Shown in pieces: positions 10,624 through 39,629 of a DNA stretch of 64,000 nucleotides. The stretch comes from Nitrospinaceae bacterium (GTDB lineage Bacteria > Nitrospinota > Nitrospinia > Nitrospinales > Nitrospinaceae), in the NCBI GenBank assembly GCA_024644405.1, contig JAHELC010000003.1, positions 124,001-188,000 on the forward strand, read 5' to 3'. The notes below the pieces were generated by a model, which saw nothing but the letters and a program-made list of their open reading frames with translations, was not told where the DNA came from and ran no database searches. Position 1 is the first letter of the stretch, and each line of letters begins with the position of its first letter. A program made the translations under genes and the position numbers.

Positions 10624-10627
<4 letters not shown>

Positions 10628-12174
10628 GAACCGAGGAACACACTTTCAGCGATTTCTATTTGAAGTTCACCCAACTCTACACCCGCACCCAGGTGGAAGA
10701 GCAGGAGGAAGAACGCATTCCCGAAAAAGTCATTCGTTGCGTGTGGAACGACCAGTTGATCAAATCCGAAGAACTGAAAACCACCGACGGCCGACCGCTG
10801 GAAGTCATCTTTCCCGGCTACTGGAATTTCGGGAGCGGACCGGATTTCAAAAGCGCCGCCATCCGCGTCGATGGCACACTTCTCGAAGGCGATGTCGAGC
10901 TCCACGTCTACGGCTGCGACTGGAAAGCACACGGTCATTCGAACAACAACGAGTACGACAACGTCATCCTGCACGTGTTCATGTGGAAAAGCCGGGGTCT
11001 CAAACCGGTAGCTGAAACCCCGGCGGATTCCACCAAAAATCTGTCGCGCCCCCACATTCATGAGTTGGAACTCAAGCAATATCTGAAGCAGGGCATTCTG
11101 CAGTTGAACGAGCAATTAGATTTCGACAGCTATCCCCTGCTCAACCAGTTCAACACCGGCCTGTGCCACCGCCCGCTGGCTCACCTGACGCAGGAAAAAT
11201 TCGCCGCACTTTTAAAGAGCGCCGGCGACGCGCGTATCCAGACCAAGATGGACCGGTTCCACGACCGCATCATCACCGGGGGCTACGAACAGACGTTCTA
11301 CGAAGGCGTGGCGGAAGCCATGGGCTATCCCAGCAACAAGCAACCTTTCCGCACTCTGGCGGAAACGGTAACGCTGGAGGGCATCAAACAACTCGTCCCG
11401 GCAAAAGCGTCCTGCGAGACTAAAACGCGCCTCATCCAGGCCGTACTGTTCGGCGTCTCCGGCCTCATCGATTTTACCGATTTGCCGAAAGGTACATCCG
11501 CCAAGGATCGAACTTATTTTTCGGATCTGCAGAGAAACTGGAACCGGCACCGGAAAAAATTTAATGATCGGCTGATGGACCGGAAAGAATGGAAATTCGG
11601 CAAAATGCGGCCTGCCAATTTCCCCTATCGCCGGGTCGCCGCCCTCAGCCACCTGGTCGTCCGGCATTGGGAATCCGGCTTGTTCGCTGATACCCTCGAA
11701 TGCCTGAAATCGACCCTTCCCACCGCCCTGGAGAAAGGATATAATGCAGTCACCCGGAACAAAGTTTTGCATTTTTTCTGCCTGGAAGCGGACGACTACT
11801 GGGCCTGGCACTACACCCCGGATGGCAAAAAACTTGCTAAAAAACAACAACTTGTAGGGCCGGACCGGTCACGGGAGATCACCATCAACATCGTTCTCCC
11901 GATCGGATTGATTTATGCCCGGGCCAGCAAATCCGCTCCCCTTGAAAAGGCGCTGGGTCTGCTGTTCCAGACCAAAACCCGGACCACGGACAACCAGTGG
12001 ATCCGGTTTATGAGCCATTACATACTGGGCGACAAGGAGCGGTTATTGAAGGAATTGGACAGCGATCGGAAAACGCAGGGTTTGATGCAGGTGTACCAGG
12101 ATTACTGCACCCGCAACCAAAACAACTGCCTGCAGTGCCAGTTTCCGGGCGTGGTCGAGCGATATTTTAAATAA
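10624..12174 (+). CDS. DUF2851 family protein
   Basis: A 516-residue cytoplasmic protein recognised as DUF2851. It has the conserved N-terminal block VIFPGYWNFGSGPDFKSAAI, then GDVELHVYGCDWKAHGHSNN and VILHVFMW, which read like a PD-(D/E)XK-type or hydrolase-like core, though no catalytic assignment is possible. A Cys-rich C-terminal end (YCTRNQNNCLQCQFPG) could bind metal. The gene overlaps cysS by four bases and precedes cysD by 116 bp. The family is mostly known from Bacteroidetes and related genomes; its function is unknown to me. Confidence 0.75.
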
Positions 12175-12290: not shown

Positions 12291-13094
12291 ATGGACCATT
12301 TAACTGAACTGGAAAACCAAAGCGTTTACATTCTGCGCGAAGCTTACAAGAACTTCAAAAATCTGGCCATGTTGTGGTCGATTGGCAAGGATTCTACCGT
12401 ACTCCTGTGGCTGGCGCGCAAGGCGTTTTTCGGCCATTGCCCGATCCCGCTGGTGCATATCGACACCAGTTATAAAATTCCCAGCATGATTGAATACCGC
12501 GACAAGTACGCCCAGGAATGGGGATTGAACCTGGTCGTCGGACAAAATAAAAAAGCGCTGGCGGAAGGCATGAATCACGAAAAAGGCCGCATCGTCTGTT
12601 GCGAAGCCTTGAAGACCCAGGGACTCTCCCAGGTCATGGAACAGGAAGGATACACCGGCCTCATTCTGGGCATTCGCCGCGACGAAGAAGGCACACGCGC
12701 CAAGGAGCGCTATTTCTCGCCGCGCGATAAAAATTTCGAATGGAATTTCAAGGACCAGCCGCCGGAGTTGTGGGACCAGTTCAAAACCACGTTCGCCGAC
12801 GGCACGCATATTCGTATTCACCCGTTACTGCACTGGACCGAACTCAACGTGTGGGAATATATCGAAAAGGAAAAGATTCCCATCATCGACCTGTACTTCG
12901 CCAATGAAGAAGGCCGCCGTTACCGGTCACTGGGTTGCGCACCCTGCACGGGATCGATCGAGTCCAACGCCAAAAACGTCCGCGAAATCATCGAAGAGTT
13001 GAAAGATACCAGTTCCTCCGAACGGTCCGGCCGCGCGCAGGATCAGGAAGACACCTACGCCATGCAGAAACTCCGGGCACGGGGGTACATGTAA
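12291..13094 (+). CDS. cysD: sulfate adenylyltransferase subunit 2
   Basis: A 267-residue PP-loop ATPase of the PAPS-reductase-like superfamily. The motif [17 protein letters not shown] is the CysD PP-loop. It also has [13 protein letters not shown], the block [19 protein letters not shown], and the C-terminal [13 protein letters not shown]. With CysN it makes adenosine 5'-phosphosulfate from ATP and sulfate. It is somewhat shorter than E. coli CysD (302). It ends two bases before the cysN ATG and is preceded by a promoter with an inverted repeat. Confidence 0.95.
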
Positions 13095-13096
13095 TA

Positions 13097-14926
13097 ATGG
13101 GAAGCAACGGTCACAAAGATCCCCAGTCCGGCAGACAAATGAAGCTGGTCATCGTCGGCCATGTCGATCATGGGAAGTCCACCCTGGTGGGCCGCCTGAT
13201 GGCCGATACCGACAGCCTGCCCACCGGCAAACTCGATTTCATCAAGGATATCTGCGACCAGCAGGGCAAGACGTTCGAGTTCGCCTTTCTCCTCGATGCA
13301 CTCGAAGAAGAGCAGAAACAGGGCATCACCATCGACACCTCGCAGATCTTTTTCAAGACGAAGAAACGGCCGTACGTGATCATCGACGCGCCCGGCCACA
13401 AGGAATTCCTCAAGAACATGGTCACCGGCGCGGCCAACGCCGAAGCGGCCCTGCTGCTGATCGACGCCTACGAAGGCGTGCAGGAACAGTCGCGACGCCA
13501 CGGATACCTGCTGCGCCTGCTGGGCATGAAACAGGTGGCGGTGGTGGTCAACAAAATGGATCTGGTCAAACACGATCCCGAGGTGTTCTACAAAATCAAA
13601 TCCGAGTACACGGATTTCCTCCAATCCCTGGGAGTGGAAGCGCGGGAATACATCCCTGTCTCAGCAAAACTGGGGGAAAACATCGCCCACCGTTCCGAAA
13701 ACATGACCTGGTACCAGGGTCCGACCGTACTCGAAATGCTGGACCAGTTCGAGGACAAACTCCCGGAAGTCAACCAACCGTTCCGCCTGCCCCTGCAGGA
13801 TGTGTACAAGTTCGACGAACGGCGCATACTCGCAGGACGCGTCGAATCCGGCACGGCCAAGATCGGCGACGAAGTGATCTTCTCTCCCTCCAATAAAAAG
13901 GGCGTGATCAAATCCATCGAAGGCTGGAGTGTGGACAAGAAACCGAAAACCGTCGAAGCGTCACAATCGGTCGGCATCACTTTAACCGAACAGATTTTTG
14001 TGGAACGCGGGGACGTGGCCACGCTGGTCAGTGATCCGCCGATCGTCACCACCACGTTCGATGCCAACGTGTTCTGGATGGGGAAAAAACATCTGCAAAA
14101 AGGCGAGTCCTATCTCATCAAACTGACCACGCAAAACGTGGAATGCGAAGTGGCCCGGTTCAACAAAGCGATCGACGCATCGACGCTGGAACCTCTGCCC
14201 GATCAGGATTTCATCGCCAAAAACGACGTTGCGGAATTGACCCTGCGCACCCGGCAACCCATCGCTTTCGATTTGTTCACTTCCATCGCCGAAACCGGCC
14301 GGTTTGTGCTGGTGGACGAATATGACGTCTGCGGCGGCGGGATCATCACCGGTTTCACACCCCTGTCGGAAATCGACCGGTACCGGGACGAAGCTCAGTA
14401 CCGCGATTCTCATTGGATCAAGGGCGCCGTCACCCCGGACATGCGAGCCTACCGCAACGGTCACCAGGCCGCCATGATTCTCATCACTGGTAAAGCGGGC
14501 GTCGGCAAAGCAGACCTCGCCGGTCACCTGGAAGAAAAACTGTTTCACCAGAATTTCCAAAGCTACCTGCTCGATGGACGCAACATCCAGGTGGGCCTCG
14601 GTGCCGACATGGATCAGGACAAGTACTTCTCCGATGGGGAAGCGGTACGGCGCTTCGGCGAAGTCGCCAAACTGTTTGTCGATGCCGGCCACGTCGTCAT
14701 CTCCACCTCCAACGTGTTCAACCAGGAAGATCATTCCAATATCAGCCTGCTGGTGGAACCGACTCCGATTGTGGAAATCCAGGTCACCAATGACAAATTT
14801 CCGAAGGGCAAACCGGAAATCGTTATGACGACGGAGGAAGCGGCAAATCATGAATCCGCGGTTCAGAAAGTCCTCGATTATCTCAAGGATCAGAAAATCC
14901 TGACTGGTCATAACTACTCAATTTAA
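13097..14926 (+). CDS. cysN: sulfate adenylyltransferase subunit 1 fused to a degenerate APS-kinase domain
   Basis: A 609-residue protein. The N-terminal EF-Tu-like GTPase is intact: GHVDHGKST (residues 21-29), DAPGH, NKMD and the following beta-barrel domains, as in CysN, which drives APS formation by CysD. From about residue 458 a CysC-like domain follows. Its P-loop reads GKAGVGKA (465-472), with Ala in place of the Mg-binding Ser/Thr. DGDN is changed to DGRN, the FISP(H/Y)R block is missing, and the segment that binds APS in active kinases (K-x-R-x-G...FTGID...) is largely absent. So sulfate activation is expected but kinase activity is not. The ATG two bases after cysD is used; the frame open upstream lies inside cysD. 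Confidence 0.9.
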   Translation: MGSNGHKDPQSGRQMKLVIVGHVDHGKSTLVGRLMADTDSLPTGKLDFIKDICDQQGKTFEFAFLLDALEEEQKQGITIDTSQIFFKTKKRPYVIIDAPGHKEFLKNMVTGAANAEAALLLIDAYEGVQEQSRRHGYLLRLLGMKQVAVVVNKMDLVKHDPEVFYKIKSEYTDFLQSLGVEAREYIPVSAKLGENIAHRSENMTWYQGPTVLEMLDQFEDKLPEVNQPFRLPLQDVYKFDERRILAGRVESGTAKIGDEVIFSPSNKKGVIKSIEGWSVDKKPKTVEASQSVGITLTEQIFVERGDVATLVSDPPIVTTTFDANVFWMGKKHLQKGESYLIKLTTQNVECEVARFNKAIDASTLEPLPDQDFIAKNDVAELTLRTRQPIAFDLFTSIAETGRFVLVDEYDVCGGGIITGFTPLSEIDRYRDEAQYRDSHWIKGAVTPDMRAYRNGHQAAMILITGKAGVGKADLAGHLEEKLFHQNFQSYLLDGRNIQVGLGADMDQDKYFSDGEAVRRFGEVAKLFVDAGHVVISTSNVFNQEDHSNISLLVEPTPIVEIQVTNDKFPKGKPEIVMTTEEAANHESAVQKVLDYLKDQKILTGHNYSI

Positions 14927-15036
14927 AAGGATTTTTAACCCAGTGGAAAAGGGAATTGACTTTTTTTCTCTGCCGTGACACAGTGCCCCTTCGTTTCGGC
15001 CCACGGGTCGGTTTCAGGGAATTTTCGAAAGTTTTT

Positions 15037-15345
15037 ATGCCAAAAATCACCGTTCACAATTCAGATACCGGCGAAGTGAAGAGCTTCAACGTCGGCTACG
15101 GCGCCAACCTCCGCAAGGGTGCGGTGTTCAACGATGTCACGCTGTATAAAGGCATGGCCGCCCAGTTGAACTGTCGCGGTATGGGCATGTGCGGCACCTG
15201 CCTGATTGAAGTTGAACCGCTTGAAAACGTGAACGGTCACTCCCTGATCGAAAAACTCCACCGCATCGGACCCAACCAGAAACTCGGTTGCCGCGCCAAA
15301 GTGTACGGCGACATCACCATCAAAGTCGCCCTCAAGGATCTTTAG
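15037..15345 (+). CDS. 2Fe-2S ferredoxin-like protein
   Basis: A 102-residue protein with the plant-type ferredoxin cluster motif C-x5-C-x2-C in NCRGMGMCGTCLIEV and the fourth cysteine in KLGCRAKV. It should carry one [2Fe-2S] cluster and transfer electrons in the cytoplasm. The start at 15037 (MPKITVHNS) places the ubiquitin-like beta-grasp strand at the N-terminus; the in-frame upstream region is not protein-like. It sits 110 bp behind cysN, with a TTGACT word at 14956, so it may have its own promoter. A partner enzyme cannot be named. Confidence 0.87.
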   Translation: MPKITVHNSDTGEVKSFNVGYGANLRKGAVFNDVTLYKGMAAQLNCRGMGMCGTCLIEVEPLENVNGHSLIEKLHRIGPNQKLGCRAKVYGDITIKVALKDL

Positions 15346-32027: not shown

Positions 32028-32471
<444 letters not shown>

Positions 32472-32539
32472 GAAACCTGTCTCCTTCGACTCAAAAGCGC
32501 GGATCATATCAATATCCGCCCAAACTCACAATAAAATTA

Positions 32540-33124
32540 TTATTCGGCCCGCGTTTCCCGACCCAACAGCCGGTCGAGAATGATTGCAATGGCCGCCCGG
32601 ACCGGCAGGTGATTGTACCCGCTCAGCCCATCAATCGGGGCCAGTATGATGTCGGCCCGCTCTACAATTCCTGTCTCCAAACCCCATCCCGTGCCAAACA
32701 CCAGCAAATGGGGATGATCTTCCTTCAACGCCGCACGCACCTCCGGGTACGACCGGCTTTGCGGAAACCGCTTGGCGTCCGGGATCACCGTTTTTGGCTT
32801 CTTTCCCCGGCGTTGAGCGATATCCGCCACCGCCTCGTCCAGCACGTTCACCACGCGGGTGCCATACAGGGCTTCCTTGCGGGTCGGGTTGTATTCCGAT
32901 CCGTAACCCTCCAGCCAATGCTCCATCATACGGCTCACCAGCTTCTGCTGGGTCTCCAACGGAGTCACCACATAAAAGGTTCCCACGGCATAAGTGCGGC
33001 AGATCCGTGAGATGTCATGCACGTCCAGGGTCGTCACGGACGAAGTGACAATGTCTCCCGATTTGTTATAGACCGGGAAATGGACCAGCGCGATGTCGAT
33101 ATTCGTATGAACCGATTCGGTCAA
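32540..33124 (-). CDS. SAM-dependent RNA methyltransferase (SPOUT-like, PF09936-type)
   Basis: A 194-residue protein that fits the small family of RNA methyltransferases encoded beside trmD. It starts IDIALVHFPVYNKSGDIV, and the probable knot/SAM-binding region is HLLVFGTGWGLETGIVERAD, then LAPIDGLSGYNHLPVRAAIAII. The C-terminal HLPVRAA motif is characteristic of trefoil-knot methyltransferases. Its RNA target is unknown. The first start codon in frame is TTG at 33124, with no clear SD, 21 bp behind trmD. Confidence 0.82.
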   Translation of the reverse strand: MTESVHTNIDIALVHFPVYNKSGDIVTSSVTTLDVHDISRICRTYAVGTFYVVTPLETQQKLVSRMMEHWLEGYGSEYNPTRKEALYGTRVVNVLDEAVADIAQRRGKKPKTVIPDAKRFPQSRSYPEVRAALKEDHPHLLVFGTGWGLETGIVERADIILAPIDGLSGYNHLPVRAAIAIILDRLLGRETRAE

Positions 33125-33145
33125 TCTGTGCCGTGTGCCACAAGT

Positions 33146-33850
33146 TTATTCGGAACCGTCCGTTTTCGACTTGCGGTGCAAATCAGGACGGTGTTTTGCC
33201 GTTTTCTTAAGCGCTGCCTGCCGCTTCCATTGCTCGATTTTCTTGTGGTCGCCGGACACCAGAACTTCCGGCACCACATGCCCCTTGTACTCCCGCGGGC
33301 GCGTGTACTGCGGATACTCCAACAGCTCACCGGAGAACGATTCCTCGGCCAGCGACTGTTCGTCGCCGACCACGCCGGGCACCAGCCGGGCCACCGTTTC
33401 CACCACGACCATGGCGGGCACCTCGCCGCCGTTCAACACATAGTCGCCGATCGACAACTCTTCGTCGACCAGTTCGGAAACCCGTTCGTCGACTCCTTCG
33501 TAGCGTCCGCACACCAGGATGATTTCTTCCTTGCGGGAAAGCTCCCAGGCTTTTTTCTGATCGAAACGATAGCCGCCAGGCGACAACAAAATACTGTGCG
33601 CTTTGGGACGATCCTTCTTCACCGCTTCCAGGGCGCGGTCGATGGGCTCGATGTTCATCACCATTCCCACCCCGCCGCCGAAAGGCGTATCATCCACTCG
33701 GTTATGCTTGTCCAGGGTGTACTCGCGAAGATCGTGCGTTCTGATCTCGACGATGCCGTTGTCCTGCGCCTTGCTCAACAGGCTTTCACGAAACGGGGAG
33801 TCAAACATCCCGGGAAAAATTGAAATTATGTCAAACCGGATGGTCTTCAA
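33146..33850 (-). CDS. trmD: tRNA (guanine-N1-)-methyltransferase
   Basis: A 234-residue TrmD. The N-terminal FDIISIFPGMFDSPFRESLL, the conserved GGGVGMVMNIEPIDRA and the SAM-knot block LVCGRYEGVDERV followed by SIGDYVLNGGE and AMVVVETVARLVPGV are all present. The C-terminal DHKKIEQWKRQAALKKT is also typical. It methylates G37 next to the anticodon, which prevents frameshifting. The start is TTG at 33850, so the gene overlaps rimM by 20 bases; no in-frame ATG fits. Confidence 0.95.
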   Translation of the reverse strand: MKTIRFDIISIFPGMFDSPFRESLLSKAQDNGIVEIRTHDLREYTLDKHNRVDDTPFGGGVGMVMNIEPIDRALEAVKKDRPKAHSILLSPGGYRFDQKKAWELSRKEEIILVCGRYEGVDERVSELVDEELSIGDYVLNGGEVPAMVVVETVARLVPGVVGDEQSLAEESFSGELLEYPQYTRPREYKGHVVPEVLVSGDHKKIEQWKRQAALKKTAKHRPDLHRKSKTDGSE

Positions 33851-34349
33851 GCAATCCCTCGATGATATGAAAAATCAATTTATTCTCCTTGAGGTCAATG
33901 GACTTGACCACGGAGTCAATCATCGGAAGCAGGAGTTCTTTGTCGCCATCCTGAACCACATATACATCATTACTGCCGGTGACAATGATTTCGTTCACCG
34001 TTCCGTAATACCGGTCTTCCTCATCGAAAACCCGAATGCCTTCAATCTGAAACCAGTAATACTCGCCTTCCGGAAGGGGTTGAAAGTCCTCACAGTATAT
34101 TTCGAGAGTCCGTCCCACCAGGGCTTGTGCCTGCTCAATGGTCTTACTATCCTTGAATTTGACGATCCAACGTCCGCCCTGACCGCGGATTTTTTCCAGT
34201 TCCGCCTCAACGGACTCCCCGTCATCACCCACAATACGGGCGCGACGGACCCCTTGAACCAAATTCGGGTCGATAATCACCGGTCGAAGCTTGACCTCTC
34301 CCTTCAACCCATGGGTTTTCGTAATGTCGCCAACCGGAACCCAATCCAT
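33831..34349 (-). CDS. rimM: ribosome maturation factor RimM
   Basis: A 172-residue protein with the RimM N-terminal domain (VPVGDITKTHGLKGEVKLRP) and the C-terminal PRC-barrel (YYWFQIEGIRVFDEEDRYYG, then LLLPMIDSVVKSID). It binds 30S/S19 and assists maturation of the 16S 3' domain. The ATG start lies four bases downstream of the khpA stop (34353), so translation is tightly coupled. It overlaps trmD at its 3' end. Confidence 0.94.
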   Translation of the reverse strand: MDWVPVGDITKTHGLKGEVKLRPVIIDPNLVQGVRRARIVGDDGESVEAELEKIRGQGGRWIVKFKDSKTIEQAQALVGRTLEIYCEDFQPLPEGEYYWFQIEGIRVFDEEDRYYGTVNEIIVTGSNDVYVVQDGDKELLLPMIDSVVKSIDLKENKLIFHIIEGLLEDHPV

Positions 34350-34352
34350 GAA

Positions 34353-34583
34353 TTATTCAATAATTTCCAAGACCGCTCTTTTTTTCAACTTGGTCGCGTT
34401 GGCATTCAAAATGGTGCGCATGGCGCGGGCCGTTTTCCCCTGCTTGCCGATCACCTTTCCCAAATCTTCCTTCGCCACTCTCAGTTCCAGGACCGTGGTT
34501 TTTTCCCCTTCCACTTCCTTGATCTCCACCTGATCCGGAAAATCAACCAATGCTTTCGCGATGACACTGATCAGATCTTTCAT
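34353..34583 (-). CDS. khpA: KH-domain RNA-binding protein
   Basis: A 76-residue protein carrying one KH domain with the G-x-x-G loop in [17 protein letters not shown]. It matches KhpA (YlqC), a small RNA chaperone-like protein that often lies between rpsP and rimM. The ATG before [11 protein letters not shown] has a GGGAGG SD; the further upstream start is less supported. Confidence 0.92.
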
Positions 34584-34690
34584 GCCCGATACCTCCCAGG
34601 TCCGCTGCAAATTCGATCTTACAGGTCATTGTGATCAATCGTTTTCACAGCATTCAGTGCGAGACACGAAGATCAAAAGGATGCCGACCT

Positions 34691-34936
34691 CTATACGGTA
34701 ACTCCGGCTTTTTTCAAAAGCGATGTCACGGTTCGGGAGGGCAAAGCTCCTTTTTTAATCCAACTCTGCGCTTTTTCCGCGTCAATTTTAAATTGATCGT
34801 CAGCTTTCAACGGGTCGTAAGTGCCCAGAATTTCAAGAAACTTGCCGTCTCTCGGAGAACGTGAATCAGTTGCAACCACCCTATAGAAGGGCTTCTTTTT
34901 TGCTCCTCGTCTACTCAATCGTATTACTACTGCCAA
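34691..34936 (-). CDS. rpsP: 30S ribosomal protein S16
   Basis: An 81-residue S16. [20 protein letters not shown] followed by [19 protein letters not shown] is canonical. The start codon is TTG with a strong AGGAGG SD five bases upstream. Homologous S16 proteins begin at the same place, so the TTG is real. It lies between ffh and khpA, with 107 bp to the latter. Confidence 0.96.
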
Positions 34937-34999
34937 TGCTTCCTCCTGCGTTAAATGGATTAAAAAACCTCACCTGAACAAAAATAAATCTGCCTGTAC

Positions 35000-36349
35000 T
35001 TAAAAAGGGCTCATGCCCCCGCGGCCCCCCATCAAGCTCCCGAGATTAAAACCCCGGGAATTTCCGGAAGACATCTTCTTCATCATTTTTTTCATCTGCG
35101 AGAACTGCTTCATCAGCTTGTTGATTTCGCTGACCGTGGTGCCGCTCCCATTGGCAATGCGCTTTTTGCGGCTGCCGTTGATAACGTTGTGGTGCGTCCG
35201 CTCGTGCGGCGTCATCGAATTGATGATGGCCTCGATACGGACGAATGCCCCGTCGTCCACCTTGATGCCCTTCATCATCTTGCCTGCGCCGGGCACCATG
35301 CTCAGCAGATCCTGAATATTTCCCATCTTGCGAATCTGCTGCAGCTGATCGCGAAAATCTTCCAGGTCAAAGGCGTTCTTTTTTAATTTCTTTTCGAGCT
35401 CTTCCTGTTGTTCCAGCTCGTAAGTGTCCTGGGCCTTGTCGACCAGGGTCATCACGTCGCCCATGCCGAGAATCCGCGACACGATGCGGTCGGGATGAAA
35501 CGGTTCCAACGCATCCAGCTTCTCTCCGGTCCCGATGTACTTGATGGGCTGGCCGGTCACGGATTTGATCGACAAGGCCGCACCCCCGCGCGCGTCGCCG
35601 TCCATCTTCGTCAACACCACGCCGTCGATGCCCACTGCGTCGTGAAACGCCTTCGACACGTTGACCGCTTCCTGACCCATCATGGAATCGGCGACGAACA
35701 GCACCTCGTGCGGCTCGATCTTTTTCTTGATGGCCTTGATCTCGTCCATCAGCGCATCGTCGATGTGCTGACGGCCGGCGGTATCGAGAATCACCGCCGT
35801 GCGCATTTCATCGCGGGCCTGCTTCACCGCCTTGGCGCAAATGCTGACCGGGTCTTTATTGTCCCCGGCCTGGTAGACGTCGATCTCCAGATCGCGCCCC
35901 AATACGTTCAACTGCTCGATCGCCGCTGGACGGTACACGTCGGCCGGGACCAACAGGCAGTTCTTGCCTTCCTTCTTGAATTTCCTGGCCAGCTTGCCGA
36001 CCGTCGTGGTTTTACCGGACCCCTGCAGACCGACCATCAAGATAATGGTGGGCGGCTGGTCGGAAAACTTAATGTCGCTGACTTCACCGCCGAGCAATTG
36101 CTCCAGCTCGTCGTTGACGATCTTGACCATCTGGTGGCCGGGCGTCAGGCTCTTCAGCACCTCCTGGCCAATGGACTTCTCCCGCACTCCGGCGAGAAAA
36201 TCCTTGATGACGGGCAAACTGACGTCCGCCTCGATCAAAGCAACGCGAATCTCGCGCAGGGCTTCATCGACGTCCGCTTCCTTGAGCTTGCCGCGACCCT
36301 TTAATTTTTTGTAGATCGCCTCAAGGCGATTGGACAAATTGTCGAACAT
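35000..36349 (-). CDS. ffh: signal recognition particle protein Ffh (SRP54)
   Basis: A 449-residue Ffh. The N domain begins MFDNLSNRLEAIYKKLKGRG. The G domain has GLQGSGKTTTVGKLARKFK, VILDTAGRQHIDDALM and TKMDGDARGGAALS, and a Met-rich M domain (MKKMMKKMSS and GMSPF end) follows. It binds 4.5S RNA and N-terminal signal sequences to target membrane proteins. The start is the ATG before FDNLSN; the open frame upstream is not conserved. It heads the ffh-rpsP-khpA-rimM-trmD-RNA methyltransferase-rplS operon. Confidence 0.96.
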   Translation of the reverse strand: MFDNLSNRLEAIYKKLKGRGKLKEADVDEALREIRVALIEADVSLPVIKDFLAGVREKSIGQEVLKSLTPGHQMVKIVNDELEQLLGGEVSDIKFSDQPPTIILMVGLQGSGKTTTVGKLARKFKKEGKNCLLVPADVYRPAAIEQLNVLGRDLEIDVYQAGDNKDPVSICAKAVKQARDEMRTAVILDTAGRQHIDDALMDEIKAIKKKIEPHEVLFVADSMMGQEAVNVSKAFHDAVGIDGVVLTKMDGDARGGAALSIKSVTGQPIKYIGTGEKLDALEPFHPDRIVSRILGMGDVMTLVDKAQDTYELEQQEELEKKLKKNAFDLEDFRDQLQQIRKMGNIQDLLSMVPGAGKMMKGIKVDDGAFVRIEAIINSMTPHERTHHNVINGSRKKRIANGSGTTVSEINKLMKQFSQMKKMMKKMSSGNSRGFNLGSLMGGRGGMSPF

Positions 36350-36403
36350 ATGTCGGGAAAACCCTGATTTTACAAATTTTAGGCTATTGTAAGCAGGGTA
36401 GTA

Positions 36404-36409
36404 TATAAT
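36404..36409 (+). promoter_or_regulatory. candidate -10 element of queC
   Basis: TATAAT at 36404-36409, 34 bp before the queC ATG. No good -35 stands at 16-18 bp, so the element may be activator-dependent or fortuitous. Confidence 0.35.
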
Positions 36410-36442
36410 AGCAATCGCTAACTTCCAAGGGATAATAACTGT

Positions 36443-37123
36443 ATGAAAAAAAAGGCTGTCGTGCTCCTGAGCGGGGGGCTGGACTCGGCCACCGTGCTGG
36501 CGATCGCCCTTAAAGCGGGGTATGAGCCGATAACCCTCTGTTTTGACTACGGCCAGAGGCACCGGGTGGAGCTGGAGAAGGCCCGTGCCCTCTCCCGGAA
36601 AATGGGGGCTCTGGAGCATAAAGAGGTCGAAATCGACCTGCGGCAGTTCGGCGGCTCGGCCCTGACGGCTGATATTGATGTGCCCAAAGGCCGTTCGGAA
36701 GGGGAAATGACCGCCGAAATCCCCATCACCTACGTTCCTGCGCGGAACACCATTTTCCTGTCATTCTGCCTGGCGGCGGCGGAAGTGGCCGGAGCGGAGG
36801 ATATTTTCATCGGCGTCAACGCCATTGACTACTCCGGCTATCCCGACTGCCGCCCGGAATATATAAAGGCCTTCGAGCAGATGGCGAACCTGGCCACCAA
36901 AGCCGGGGTGGAGGGAAAATCGAAATTTAAAATCCACACACCCCTGATCGAAATGACCAAAGCCGAGATCATCAAAAAAGGACTGGAACTGGGAGTCGAC
37001 TACTCCCTCACTCATTCCTGCTACCATCCGGATACCAATGGCCACCCCTGCGGCCAATGCGACAGTTGTCTGTTAAGAAAAAAAGGTTTTGCTGAGGCGG
37101 GTGTGGATGATCCTATTGTGTAG
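36443..37123 (+). CDS. queC: 7-cyano-7-deazaguanine synthase
   Basis: A 226-residue QueC. The PP-loop is [17 protein letters not shown], and [18 protein letters not shown] follows. The zinc site is C-x8-C-x2-C-x2-C in [21 protein letters not shown]. It converts 7-carboxy-7-deazaguanine (the QueE product) to preQ0 for queuosine. queE is also in the window, at 48.3 kb, not adjacent. A TATAAT lies just before the start. Confidence 0.96.
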
Positions 37124-37171
37124 TTGTTCGATTTATCGAACGATTAAGATATCCCAAAAAATTGGATACGG

Positions 37172-37891
37172 TTACTGCTGGCTGGTTCGGCTCTGACTGG
37201 AACCGCCGTCGACGAACAGGATCTCGCCGTTGACGAAGGGACTGGCGATCAGATAATCGAGGGCGCGGGTGAGGTCGGACACATCGCCGTGGGTTTTCAT
37301 GGGCACGTTCTTCTTGTTGCGGTCGAGGTAATCCTGTCCTTTACCCGCGGGCGGAAGGATGAGTCCCGGTGCGATGGCGTTGACGCGCACGGTCTCGCCC
37401 CATTCCACCGCCGCCAGTTTGGTGACGTGTTCCAGCGCCACCTTGCTGACCGAGTACGCGGCGAAGGTCGGGATGTTCTTGGTGATGCGTTCGTCGAGGA
37501 GGTTGACGATCAACCCCTGCCCCACCTGTTTTTTGTATTCGCGCATGAGCAGATAGGGCGATATGAGATTCAGCGCCATCGTATCGACCAGCGTTTTTGT
37601 GGACGTGTGCTCGACGTTCTCCTGGATGAAGTTGGCGGCGCAGTTGATGAGCAGTGCGACGTCGCTAAAATCCGCTGTCACCCGCTTAACCAATCCTTCG
37701 GCAAACGCGAGGTCGGTCAGACTGCCGGGATAGGTCTTGCACGTCACCCCCGCCTGTTTCGCATGGGCGAGCACTTCCGCGGGATCGGAGCTGTTATAGC
37801 TCAGCGCAAGATTCCATCCCTGATCCGCCAGATGGCAGGCCAGGGCCCTGCCGAGGCGCACCGCACCACCTGTGATGATCGCTGTGGACAT
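37172..37891 (-). CDS. SDR-family reductase, FolM/pteridine-reductase-like
   Basis: A 239-residue SDR. The cofactor loop is TGGAVRLGRALACHL, whose Arg (GAVRLG) is the usual pointer to NADPH-using pteridine or dihydromonapterin reductases such as FolM and PTR1. The catalytic motif is AYSVSKVALEH (Y-x3-K), and NAIAPGLILPP precedes the substrate loop. It may reduce a pterin. The ATG chosen has a GGAG SD; a start four codons upstream exists. It is divergent from mogA, which would fit a shared link to pterin/molybdopterin chemistry, but this is inference. Confidence 0.8.
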   Translation of the reverse strand: MSTAIITGGAVRLGRALACHLADQGWNLALSYNSSDPAEVLAHAKQAGVTCKTYPGSLTDLAFAEGLVKRVTADFSDVALLINCAANFIQENVEHTSTKTLVDTMALNLISPYLLMREYKKQVGQGLIVNLLDERITKNIPTFAAYSVSKVALEHVTKLAAVEWGETVRVNAIAPGLILPPAGKGQDYLDRNKKNVPMKTHGDVSDLTRALDYLIASPFVNGEILFVDGGSSQSRTSQQ

Positions 37892-37971
37892 GGGTTTCTC
37901 CATCCTCGTGAGCCTTCGGTTATATCATAATTGCCCCTGTTAAAAACAGGGCAGGCGACCGTGAGTCCTGC

Positions 37972-38000
37972 TTTACACGGAGCAACGGGATTGATACTAT
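37972..38000 (+). promoter_or_regulatory. candidate sigma70 promoter of mogA
   Basis: TTTACA (37972-37977) and TACTAT (37995-38000) are spaced exactly 17 bp, 30 bp before the mogA ATG with its AGGAG SD. Confidence 0.6.
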
Positions 38001-38030
38001 GCGGGCGAACCCTCTTTAGGAGTGAACGGA

Positions 38031-38549
38031 ATGGACGCAAAGGCAGGCAAAAGCGTGAATATCGCCATCATGACGGTATCGGACACGCGCACGGAAGCAG
38101 ACGACAAATCGGGAAATACGCTGGTGGACCGCGCCAAGGCCGCGGGGCACAATGTGGTCGATAAACAGATCGTGAAAGATGAGATCCCTATCATTCAGGC
38201 GACCCTCAAAAAATGGATCGCCGACTCCAACATCGACGTCGTTATCGCCACCGGCGGGACCGGCGTCACCGGACGGGACGTCACGCCGGAGGCATTCGAA
38301 GGGTTGTATGACAAATCAATTCCCGGTTTCGGCGAACTGTTCCGCATGTTGAGTTATCAGAACATCAAGACCTCGACGATGCAGTCGCGCGCCACCGGCG
38401 GCGTAGCCAACGGTACCTTTCTGTTCGCCCTGCCCGGCTCCACCGGCGCGTGCAAGGACGCGTGGGACGGGATTCTCGTGCACCAGCTCAACAGCAACAA
38501 CCCGCCGTGCAACCTGGTGGAGCTGATGCCGCGCCTGCTGGAAAAATAA
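38031..38549 (+). CDS. mogA: molybdopterin adenylyltransferase (MogA/MoaB family)
   Basis: A 172-residue MogA/MoaB-type protein. It starts with [19 protein letters not shown], holds [17 protein letters not shown] and ends [16 protein letters not shown], all typical. It adenylates molybdopterin before molybdate insertion by MoeA, forming the cofactor of nitrate reductases and related enzymes. The ATG with an AGGAG SD is chosen over a GTG nine bases earlier. The next stretch is repeat copy B. Confidence 0.92.
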
Positions 38550-38568
38550 CCTGCCGCTCCGCGCGGGG

Positions 38569-38638
38569 CGACTCCTACCAAAGAGGGAAATTACTGACGG
38601 TAACCAACAAGCGATGGTCACTGGGCGCAACTCCAAGT
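38569..38638 (+). repeat. dispersed intergenic repeat, copy B
   Basis: It lies between mogA and rluD. It shares CGACTCCTACC and AAG with copy C, and ACTGACGGT, AACAAGCGAT, GGTCACTGGGCGC and CTCCAAG with copies A and C. The order of the blocks differs slightly from copy C, so this is a mosaic or degenerate copy. Confidence 0.6.
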
Positions 38639-38699
38639 CTCCCCCCTTATATCAATGAGAACTTTACATAACTCAATCCGGCCCGCGGGCTCTTAAACC

Positions 38700-39629
38700 A
38701 TGCAACAATTTGAATACGACATCGATCCCGCCTGCGGCAAGAAACGCCTGGACATTTTCCTGACCGAGGTCCAAGCCGATATCACGCGATCTTACATCAA
38801 GAAACTGATCGAGACCGAGCGCGTCACCGTCAACGGCGTTCCCGCGAAAGCCCAATACAAGTTGAAAGAGGGCGACCACGTGGAAGTCGAGGTGCCCGAC
38901 CCGGAACCGCTGGAGGTCAAGGCGGAGCCGATTCCCTTGAATATTGTTTACGAGGACGAGTGCCTGATCGTCATCGACAAACCTCCCGGCATGGTGGTGC
39001 ACCCGGCCCCCGGCCATTCCGGCGGCACCCTGGTCAATGCGCTTTTGCATCACTGTCATGACCTGGCCGGCATCGGCGGGGTGGAGCGGCCGGGAATTGT
39101 GCACCGGCTCGACAAGGACACTTCCGGCCTGATCGTCGCCGCCAAAACCGAGGCCTGCATGCAATCGTTGACCCGCCAGTTCAAAGAGCGGGATATCCAC
39201 AAAGTGTACCTGGCTCTAGCCAAGGGAACCCTCGAATCAAAAACCGGGGAGATCGACGTGCCTATCGGCCGGCACAAAACACAGCGGAAAAAAATGTCGA
39301 CCCGCGCCCCGGCCGGCAGGGACGCGCAAACCCGGTATGAAGTGATCCGGCAATTGGACGGCTACGCCTATCTCCGGTTGTTCCCGAAAACAGGTCGAAC
39401 CCATCAGCTCCGGGTGCATTTGGCGTCCATCGGCCATCCTGTTCTGGGCGACCGGTTGTATGGCGGAACGCTGGGACCGGGGCTTCCTCAAATTGCGAGA
39501 CAAGCCCTGCACGCCCATCGGCTGGAGTTGACACACCCGGTCACCGGGAATCTTTTACAACTGGAAAGCCCAATACCTTCTGATATAGAGGCCCTGCTCC
39601 CGGCCTCACCTGATCCAAAGGTCCATTGA
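38700..39629 (+). CDS. rluD: RluD-family 23S rRNA pseudouridine synthase
   Basis: A 309-residue RluA-family enzyme. An N-terminal S4 domain (KKRLDIFLTEV to KAQYKLKEGDHVEVEV) is followed by the synthase core with IDKPPGMVVHPAPGH and the catalytic Asp in GIVHRLDKDTSGLIVAAKT. GRTHQLRVHLASIGHPVLGD closes the domain, split here into its blocks. RluD modifies U1911, U1915 and U1917 in 23S helix 69. It ends at the long gene-free stretch. It follows repeat copy B; the ATG is at 38700. Confidence 0.93.
   Translation: MQQFEYDIDPACGKKRLDIFLTEVQADITRSYIKKLIETERVTVNGVPAKAQYKLKEGDHVEVEVPDPEPLEVKAEPIPLNIVYEDECLIVIDKPPGMVVHPAPGHSGGTLVNALLHHCHDLAGIGGVERPGIVHRLDKDTSGLIVAAKTEACMQSLTRQFKERDIHKVYLALAKGTLESKTGEIDVPIGRHKTQRKKMSTRAPAGRDAQTRYEVIRQLDGYAYLRLFPKTGRTHQLRVHLASIGHPVLGDRLYGGTLGPGLPQIARQALHAHRLELTHPVTGNLLQLESPIPSDIEALLPASPDPKVH

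Follow-up and report, generated by a model that had tools for sequence, protein, structure and literature searches.

The window, by which we mean the whole 64,000-nt stretch of DNA analyzed, comes from contig JAHELC010000003.1 of the Nitrospinaceae bacterium assembly GCA_024644405.1. On its plus strand, positions 12291–13094 hold cysD, encoding the 267-residue catalytic subunit of ATP sulfurylase, with an intact SxGKDS PP-loop and a score of 372 bits against NCBIfam PRK05253 (cut-off 195). After only two bases follows the ATG (13097) of a gene for a 609-residue CysN fusion on the same strand, ending with a stop codon at 14924–14926. The GTPase part of this protein (13097–14431), directly downstream of cysD, retains the GHVDHGKST, DAPGH and NKMD motifs and scores 345 bits against TIGR02034 (CysN; cut-off 336). 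The remaining 164 residues (14432–14923, plus strand) form an APS-kinase-like domain that lacks the lid and is apparently kinase-dead. A DUF2851 protein (10624–12174, plus strand) is encoded between cysS and cysD. CysD also contains a GCAPCT motif, as does CysH, and a CysH query matches CysD through it. Directly after the CysN fusion is a gene for a small 2Fe–2S ferredoxin (14956–15345, plus strand; Pfam Fer2, just above cut-off). We considered this ferredoxin as a conserved part of the module, but rejected the idea, as its motif follows the fusion in only 14 of the 46 loci.

Homology to APS kinases starts near 14432–14450, slightly upstream of the boundary at 14474 given in a preliminary description of this DNA, and the domain spans about 160 residues. 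It scored 53.3 bits against Pfam APS_kinase (PF01583; cut-off 21.1), yet the match covered only positions 2–82 of the 152 in the profile; against NCBIfam apsK the score was 60, with a cut-off of 139. APS-kinase matches in the sequence searches were likewise confined to the first part of the domain. An AlphaFold2 model of the domain, made with a 48-sequence alignment, had a mean pLDDT of 82, and a Foldseek search of the PDB with this model returned APS kinases as the best matches (1d6j, TM 0.82, E 1e-10). The full-length fusion was modeled with a mean pLDDT of 81, the last five residues being disordered. By profile match and model alike, the C-terminal domain has the P-loop nucleoside-triphosphate fold of APS kinases.

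In the M. tuberculosis CysC domain, Lys456 serves the phosphates, Ser457 the Mg, and Asp480 acts as the base; APS is bound by Arg483, Phe492 and Arg497, while Ile523 and Ser524 of the FISP block contact the APS phosphosulfate, and residues 552–581, including Lys562 and Phe576, form the lid (PMC4373884). Alignment with CysC showed that little of this catalytic equipment is left in the window. The P-loop persists in the degenerate form GKAGVGKA (14489–14512), in which an Ala codon (14510–14512) occupies the position of the Mg-binding Ser/Thr; across 45 Nitrospinales, the Ser457 position is Ala in 24, Gly in 19 and Ser in 2. DGDN has become DGRN (14573–14584), with an Arg codon (14579–14581) at the position of the catalytic Asp480, which is Arg in 42 of the 45, His in 2 and Lys in 1; the catalytic Asp was never present in the dead-domain clade. 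The FISP block is replaced by STSN (14702–14713), which is near-invariant in the 45 Nitrospinales, and the positions of Arg483, Phe492, Arg497 and Asn500 vary freely. The lid is absent, leaving a gap of 30 alignment columns in all 18 dead domains compared. None of these 18 retains Asp480, the Ser or Pro of FISP, or the lid, while Lys456 and the first Asp are retained in Nitrospinales. The preliminary description had called the domain an apparently dead APS kinase, pointing to the Ala in the P-loop, the change to DGRN and the missing FISP block and lid, and all of these particulars held in the alignments. Judged by sequence, there is strong support for the conclusion that the domain cannot be a normal APS kinase, with the Mg ligand, the catalytic base, the APS contacts and the lid all lost.

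The domain is not peculiar to the window. We surveyed 77 genomes from the phylum, and almost every one that has cysDN also has the same low-scoring fused domain. Each of the approximately 50 Nitrospinota examples of the fusion that we could read showed both the deletion of the lid and the loss of the catalytic Asp. A second collection contributed 14 loci with the same features, which also recurred phylum-wide, single-contig genomes included. Sequencing errors, which had been named as one way in which the description might fail, are therefore ruled out, because the changes are shared by about 50 genomes.

A tblastn search of plasmids yielded two further fusions without a lid, from Ilyobacter polytropus (Fusobacteriota; WP_013389252.1, annotated as 'GTP-binding protein', on pILYOP02) and Gemmatirosa kalamazoonensis (Gemmatimonadota; plasmid 2), while a search of viral contigs gave no relative. 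The CysN parts of both fall in the same clade as that of the window (ultrafast bootstrap 93–96%), and both fusions have likewise lost the lid and the catalytic Asp. They differ in having lost the P-loop Lys, in having LGxxN in place of LDGDN and in lacking the C-terminal GHNYSI tail. Ilyobacter has Arg in place of the P-loop Lys, and Gemmatirosa and one class-level relative (L101) have lost the GK entirely, but the fold and the dimer helix remain in all three. In a tree of the CysN parts, all dead-domain proteins formed one group with support of 96/97, or 95/95 without the longest branches and 93/92 when Gemmatirosa was also left out. This group stands beside Skermanella, where the kinase domain is intact. 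A tree of the kinase domains separated dead from intact forms completely, a separation driven in part by the active-site changes themselves. On pILYOP02, which is conjugative, the Ilyobacter fusion lies in an operon (32425–39194; L158/L163) that also encodes a sodium–anion symporter, an intact CysC, an AprA-like APS reductase alpha subunit, a ferredoxin and CysD, and that has the appearance of a mobile island for sulfate assimilation by way of AprA. We also noted three fusions of family f9 (L103, L106 and L107) that keep the lid and the P-loop but have DGAD or DGSD, with Ala or Ser for Asp480. These were rejected as ancestors of the domain, as their CysN falls elsewhere in the tree; they possibly represent a second, independent kinase-dead form of CysNC, with a pattern closer to that of the fungal PAPS sensor.

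A former CysNC fusion that has lost catalysis could be a functionless relic in decay, and the P-loop is indeed eroding in some lineages. We compared substitution rates by the pairwise Nei–Gojobori method in 19 pairs. The dN/dS ratio was mostly 0.035–0.13 for the domain and 0.027–0.13 for the GTPase part, although the ratios are rough, several dS values being >1; one higher value for the domain, 0.24, came from a pair with a dS of 0.08. Ratios this close to the low values of the GTPase part mean that the domain is not junk, and these codon comparisons show that purifying selection acts on it. No stop codons occurred inside the domain in the full-length copies fetched, and it has been kept in one clade across three phyla. 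With most of the ratios at 0.04–0.13, we rejected a relic and regard it as very unlikely. The long conservation of the dead domain, also in other phyla, suggests that its present role lies in holding the complex together or in regulation and not in PAPS synthesis.

To see what is conserved, we mapped the eight dimer-interface positions of the Entamoeba APS kinase (PMC13213808) onto the domain through the P-loop and DGD motifs, the equivalences being made here; they correspond to domain residues 44, 45, 55, 59, 74, 77, 81 and 84. The mean entropy at these positions was 0.12 bits, compared to 0.93 for residues 14–119 (permutation P 0.001). Four of the eight lie in a single conserved helix, EAVRRFGEVAKLFVDAG (14639–14689, plus strand), where E81, R84, R85 and E88 (in the numbering of Ilyobacter CysC) are present in 100% of the 18 dead domains. 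The four positions that make side-chain contacts to APS were among the most variable, with an entropy of 2.32 (P 0.002). APS kinases dimerize through this region (PMC4373884, PMC13213808), and M. tuberculosis CysNC has a kinase domain that is dimeric both in the crystal and in solution (PMC4373884). With the APS half of the site erased and the dimer interface frozen, the simplest reading is that the domain is a dimerization or assembly module. On balance, we think it probable that the kinase-dead domain is a permanent, non-catalytic part of CysDN, most likely serving in this way. The domain itself would dimerize, and dimerization would in turn support the assembly or activity of CysDN.

Some observations fit this reading less well. 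First, in Nitrospinales the P-loop/DxxN cradle has an entropy of 0.07 (P 0.002), and the conservation of the P-loop G/GK, Asp48, Asn51 and STSN equals that of the dimer interface, which counts against a pure scaffold, since a scaffold needs no cradle. The phosphate cradle (GK-Ala/Gly, Asp48, Arg50, Asn51 and STSN) might instead be a remodeled, Mg-free allosteric site through which a new ligand, an anion or a nucleotide such as ADP, ATP, GDP, sulfate or phosphate, tunes the sulfurylase. Its positions are near-invariant in the 45 Nitrospinales, the exchange of Asp for Arg, His or Lys reverses the charge in every case, which would favor an anion, and a related kinase has sulfate bound at its P-loop (PMC13213808). 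However, P-loop conservation can be structural, and the cradle is lost in the wider clade, in Ilyobacter through the Arg at the P-loop Lys and in Gemmatirosa and L101 with the GK. We consider an allosteric cradle possible but unlikely.

Second, dimerization does not explain the C-terminal tail, GHNYSI (14906–14923, plus strand), which is near-invariant in the 45 Nitrospinales and absent from canonical CysC. In the monomer model the tail is of low confidence or disordered and has no stable place, as expected for a short binding motif, and the domain and tail together could form a docking platform for a partner (CysD, APS reductase or some other protein), for instance to pass on APS. No partner was identified, the Ilyobacter and Gemmatirosa proteins do without the tail, and in the genome of the window cysH lies away from the cysDN operon (C30 versus C21); the probability of a docking role is accordingly rather low. 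Dimerization or assembly thus remains the reading that we prefer for the domain.

We then asked whether the organism depends on PAPS at all. The CysN-fused domain gave the sole PF01583 match in the genome of the window, which is 95.8% complete, and the separate cysC for which the preliminary description had suggested a search was not found: a profile search of the genome gave no APS kinase besides the fused domain. A single-contig relative (G010) likewise had one APS-kinase match. The second suggestion was to establish whether the reductase is of the APS or the PAPS type. The single CysH of the genome has the [4Fe–4S] motifs CCxxRKxxPL and GCxPC; it passes the TIGR02055 APS_reductase model with 262.8 (cut-off 235.3) and fails the TIGR02057 PAPS_reductase model with 162 (cut-off 254.2). 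Across the phylum, both motifs were present in 47 of the 47 CysH loci that were readable, out of 51 that include the locus of the window's own genome, fetched twice. The case that CysH is a putative APS-type reductase is thus strong but not absolute; some [4Fe–4S] CysH enzymes elsewhere also accept PAPS. Sulfotransferases of families PF13469 and PF00685 gave no match in a profile search of the window's genome. CysQ did not serve as a marker of PAPS use in either direction, because its model picks up generic inositol-phosphatase relatives with scores below cut-off. With a dead domain as the only APS-kinase match, an APS-type CysH and neither sulfotransferase family, the earlier suggestion that APS may be reduced directly and PAPS not needed is supported.

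Elsewhere in the phylum, a separate intact APS kinase was found in 16 genomes. Sulfotransferases occurred in 9 of these 16 and in 9 of the 61 genomes without a separate CysC (Fisher P 0.0014, which is optimistic because the genomes are related). In five genomes (G012, G017, G036, G038 and G047) CysC and a sulfotransferase lie on the same contig, about 1–12 kb apart. This co-occurrence indicates that PAPS, where it is wanted, apparently comes from another gene than the fusion; for sulfation it seems to be made by the separate, intact CysC. In nine genomes that match sulfotransferase families, no intact CysC was found; some need for PAPS may exist in these, which would count against our reading, or their assemblies may be incomplete. 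Two of the genomes have a Sat-type ATP sulfurylase, an intact CysC and a sulfotransferase within about 4 kb (G036:C59; G038:C45 and C47), a separate PAPS/sulfation module alongside the dead fusion that the same genomes also carry.

These results bear on the other proposal of the preliminary description, that the domain might be an allosteric sensor comparable to the PAPS-sensing domain of fungal ATP sulfurylase. The general idea is the same for the regulatory domain of the Penicillium enzyme, where an ATP sulfurylase carries an APS-kinase-like domain that lacks the kinase motifs (PMC3734648, PMC13213808). Yet the fungal domain keeps the APS/PAPS site and the lid, and the Nitrospinota domain is the opposite, having lost the contacts and the lid; moreover, no PAPS-making enzyme was found in the genome of the window. 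The proposal is for this reason not supported, and we regard a PAPS sensor as highly improbable.

In the model that we favor, the dimer interface inherited from APS kinase would pair two CysDN units, and the APS that they supply would be used directly by the [4Fe–4S] APS reductase, with any PAPS needed for sulfation provided by a separate, intact CysC. A broader version is more doubtful: that there is an ancient CysN family spanning several phyla in which the dead, lid-less domain is an obligate part for both assembly and regulation, and that in Nitrospinales its emptied P-loop pocket may sense a ligand other than PAPS.

The genome paper on Nitrospina gracilis annotated CysDNC and described sulfate assimilation via PAPS (PMC3578206). 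By contrast, all Nitrospinales fusions that we read appear kinase-dead and all readable CysH are of the APS type; the published route in Nitrospina should be re-examined. This would alter the pathway of sulfur metabolism attributed to the main marine nitrite oxidizers, and the automatic annotation 'bifunctional CysNC' would be wrong for the dead-domain clade. The clade can also be read as a natural experiment in the persistence of an APS-kinase domain beyond the loss of its catalysis.

Among known systems, M. tuberculosis CysNC and rhizobial NodQ have the same order as the protein described here, a CysN GTPase followed by an APS-kinase fold, beside cysD. In yeast, the APS-kinase-like domain of ATP sulfurylase has a role in oligomerization. 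This yeast domain is non-catalytic and has been listed without a defined function (PMC3779200); it differs in being carried by a Sat-type sulfurylase. The active CysNC domain has GK[ST], DGDN, FISP and a lid (PMC4373884), all four of which are lost in the Nitrospinota domain. Sat-type ATP sulfurylases with a dead APS-kinase domain were already known (PMC3734648, PMC3779200), and we found no description in the open-access literature of such a domain on CysN. The C-terminal regulatory domain of Penicillium chrysogenum ATP sulfurylase (1i2d/1m8p) is also kinase-dead and has also lost the Walker Ser/Thr (GYMNSGKD), but it sits on the unrelated Sat-type sulfurylase, whereas the Nitrospinota domain sits on CysN. 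When aligned here, the Penicillium domain (1i2d) was seen to keep VR, LGF, EDR, TN and the lid, and to have lost the Walker Ser and the first Asp. The Nitrospinota domain is the reverse: its ATP-side cradle persists, and its APS side and lid are missing. Fungi have thus kept the PAPS site and these bacteria the dimer interface and cradle, so that experiments could separate the structural and regulatory roles of such domains.
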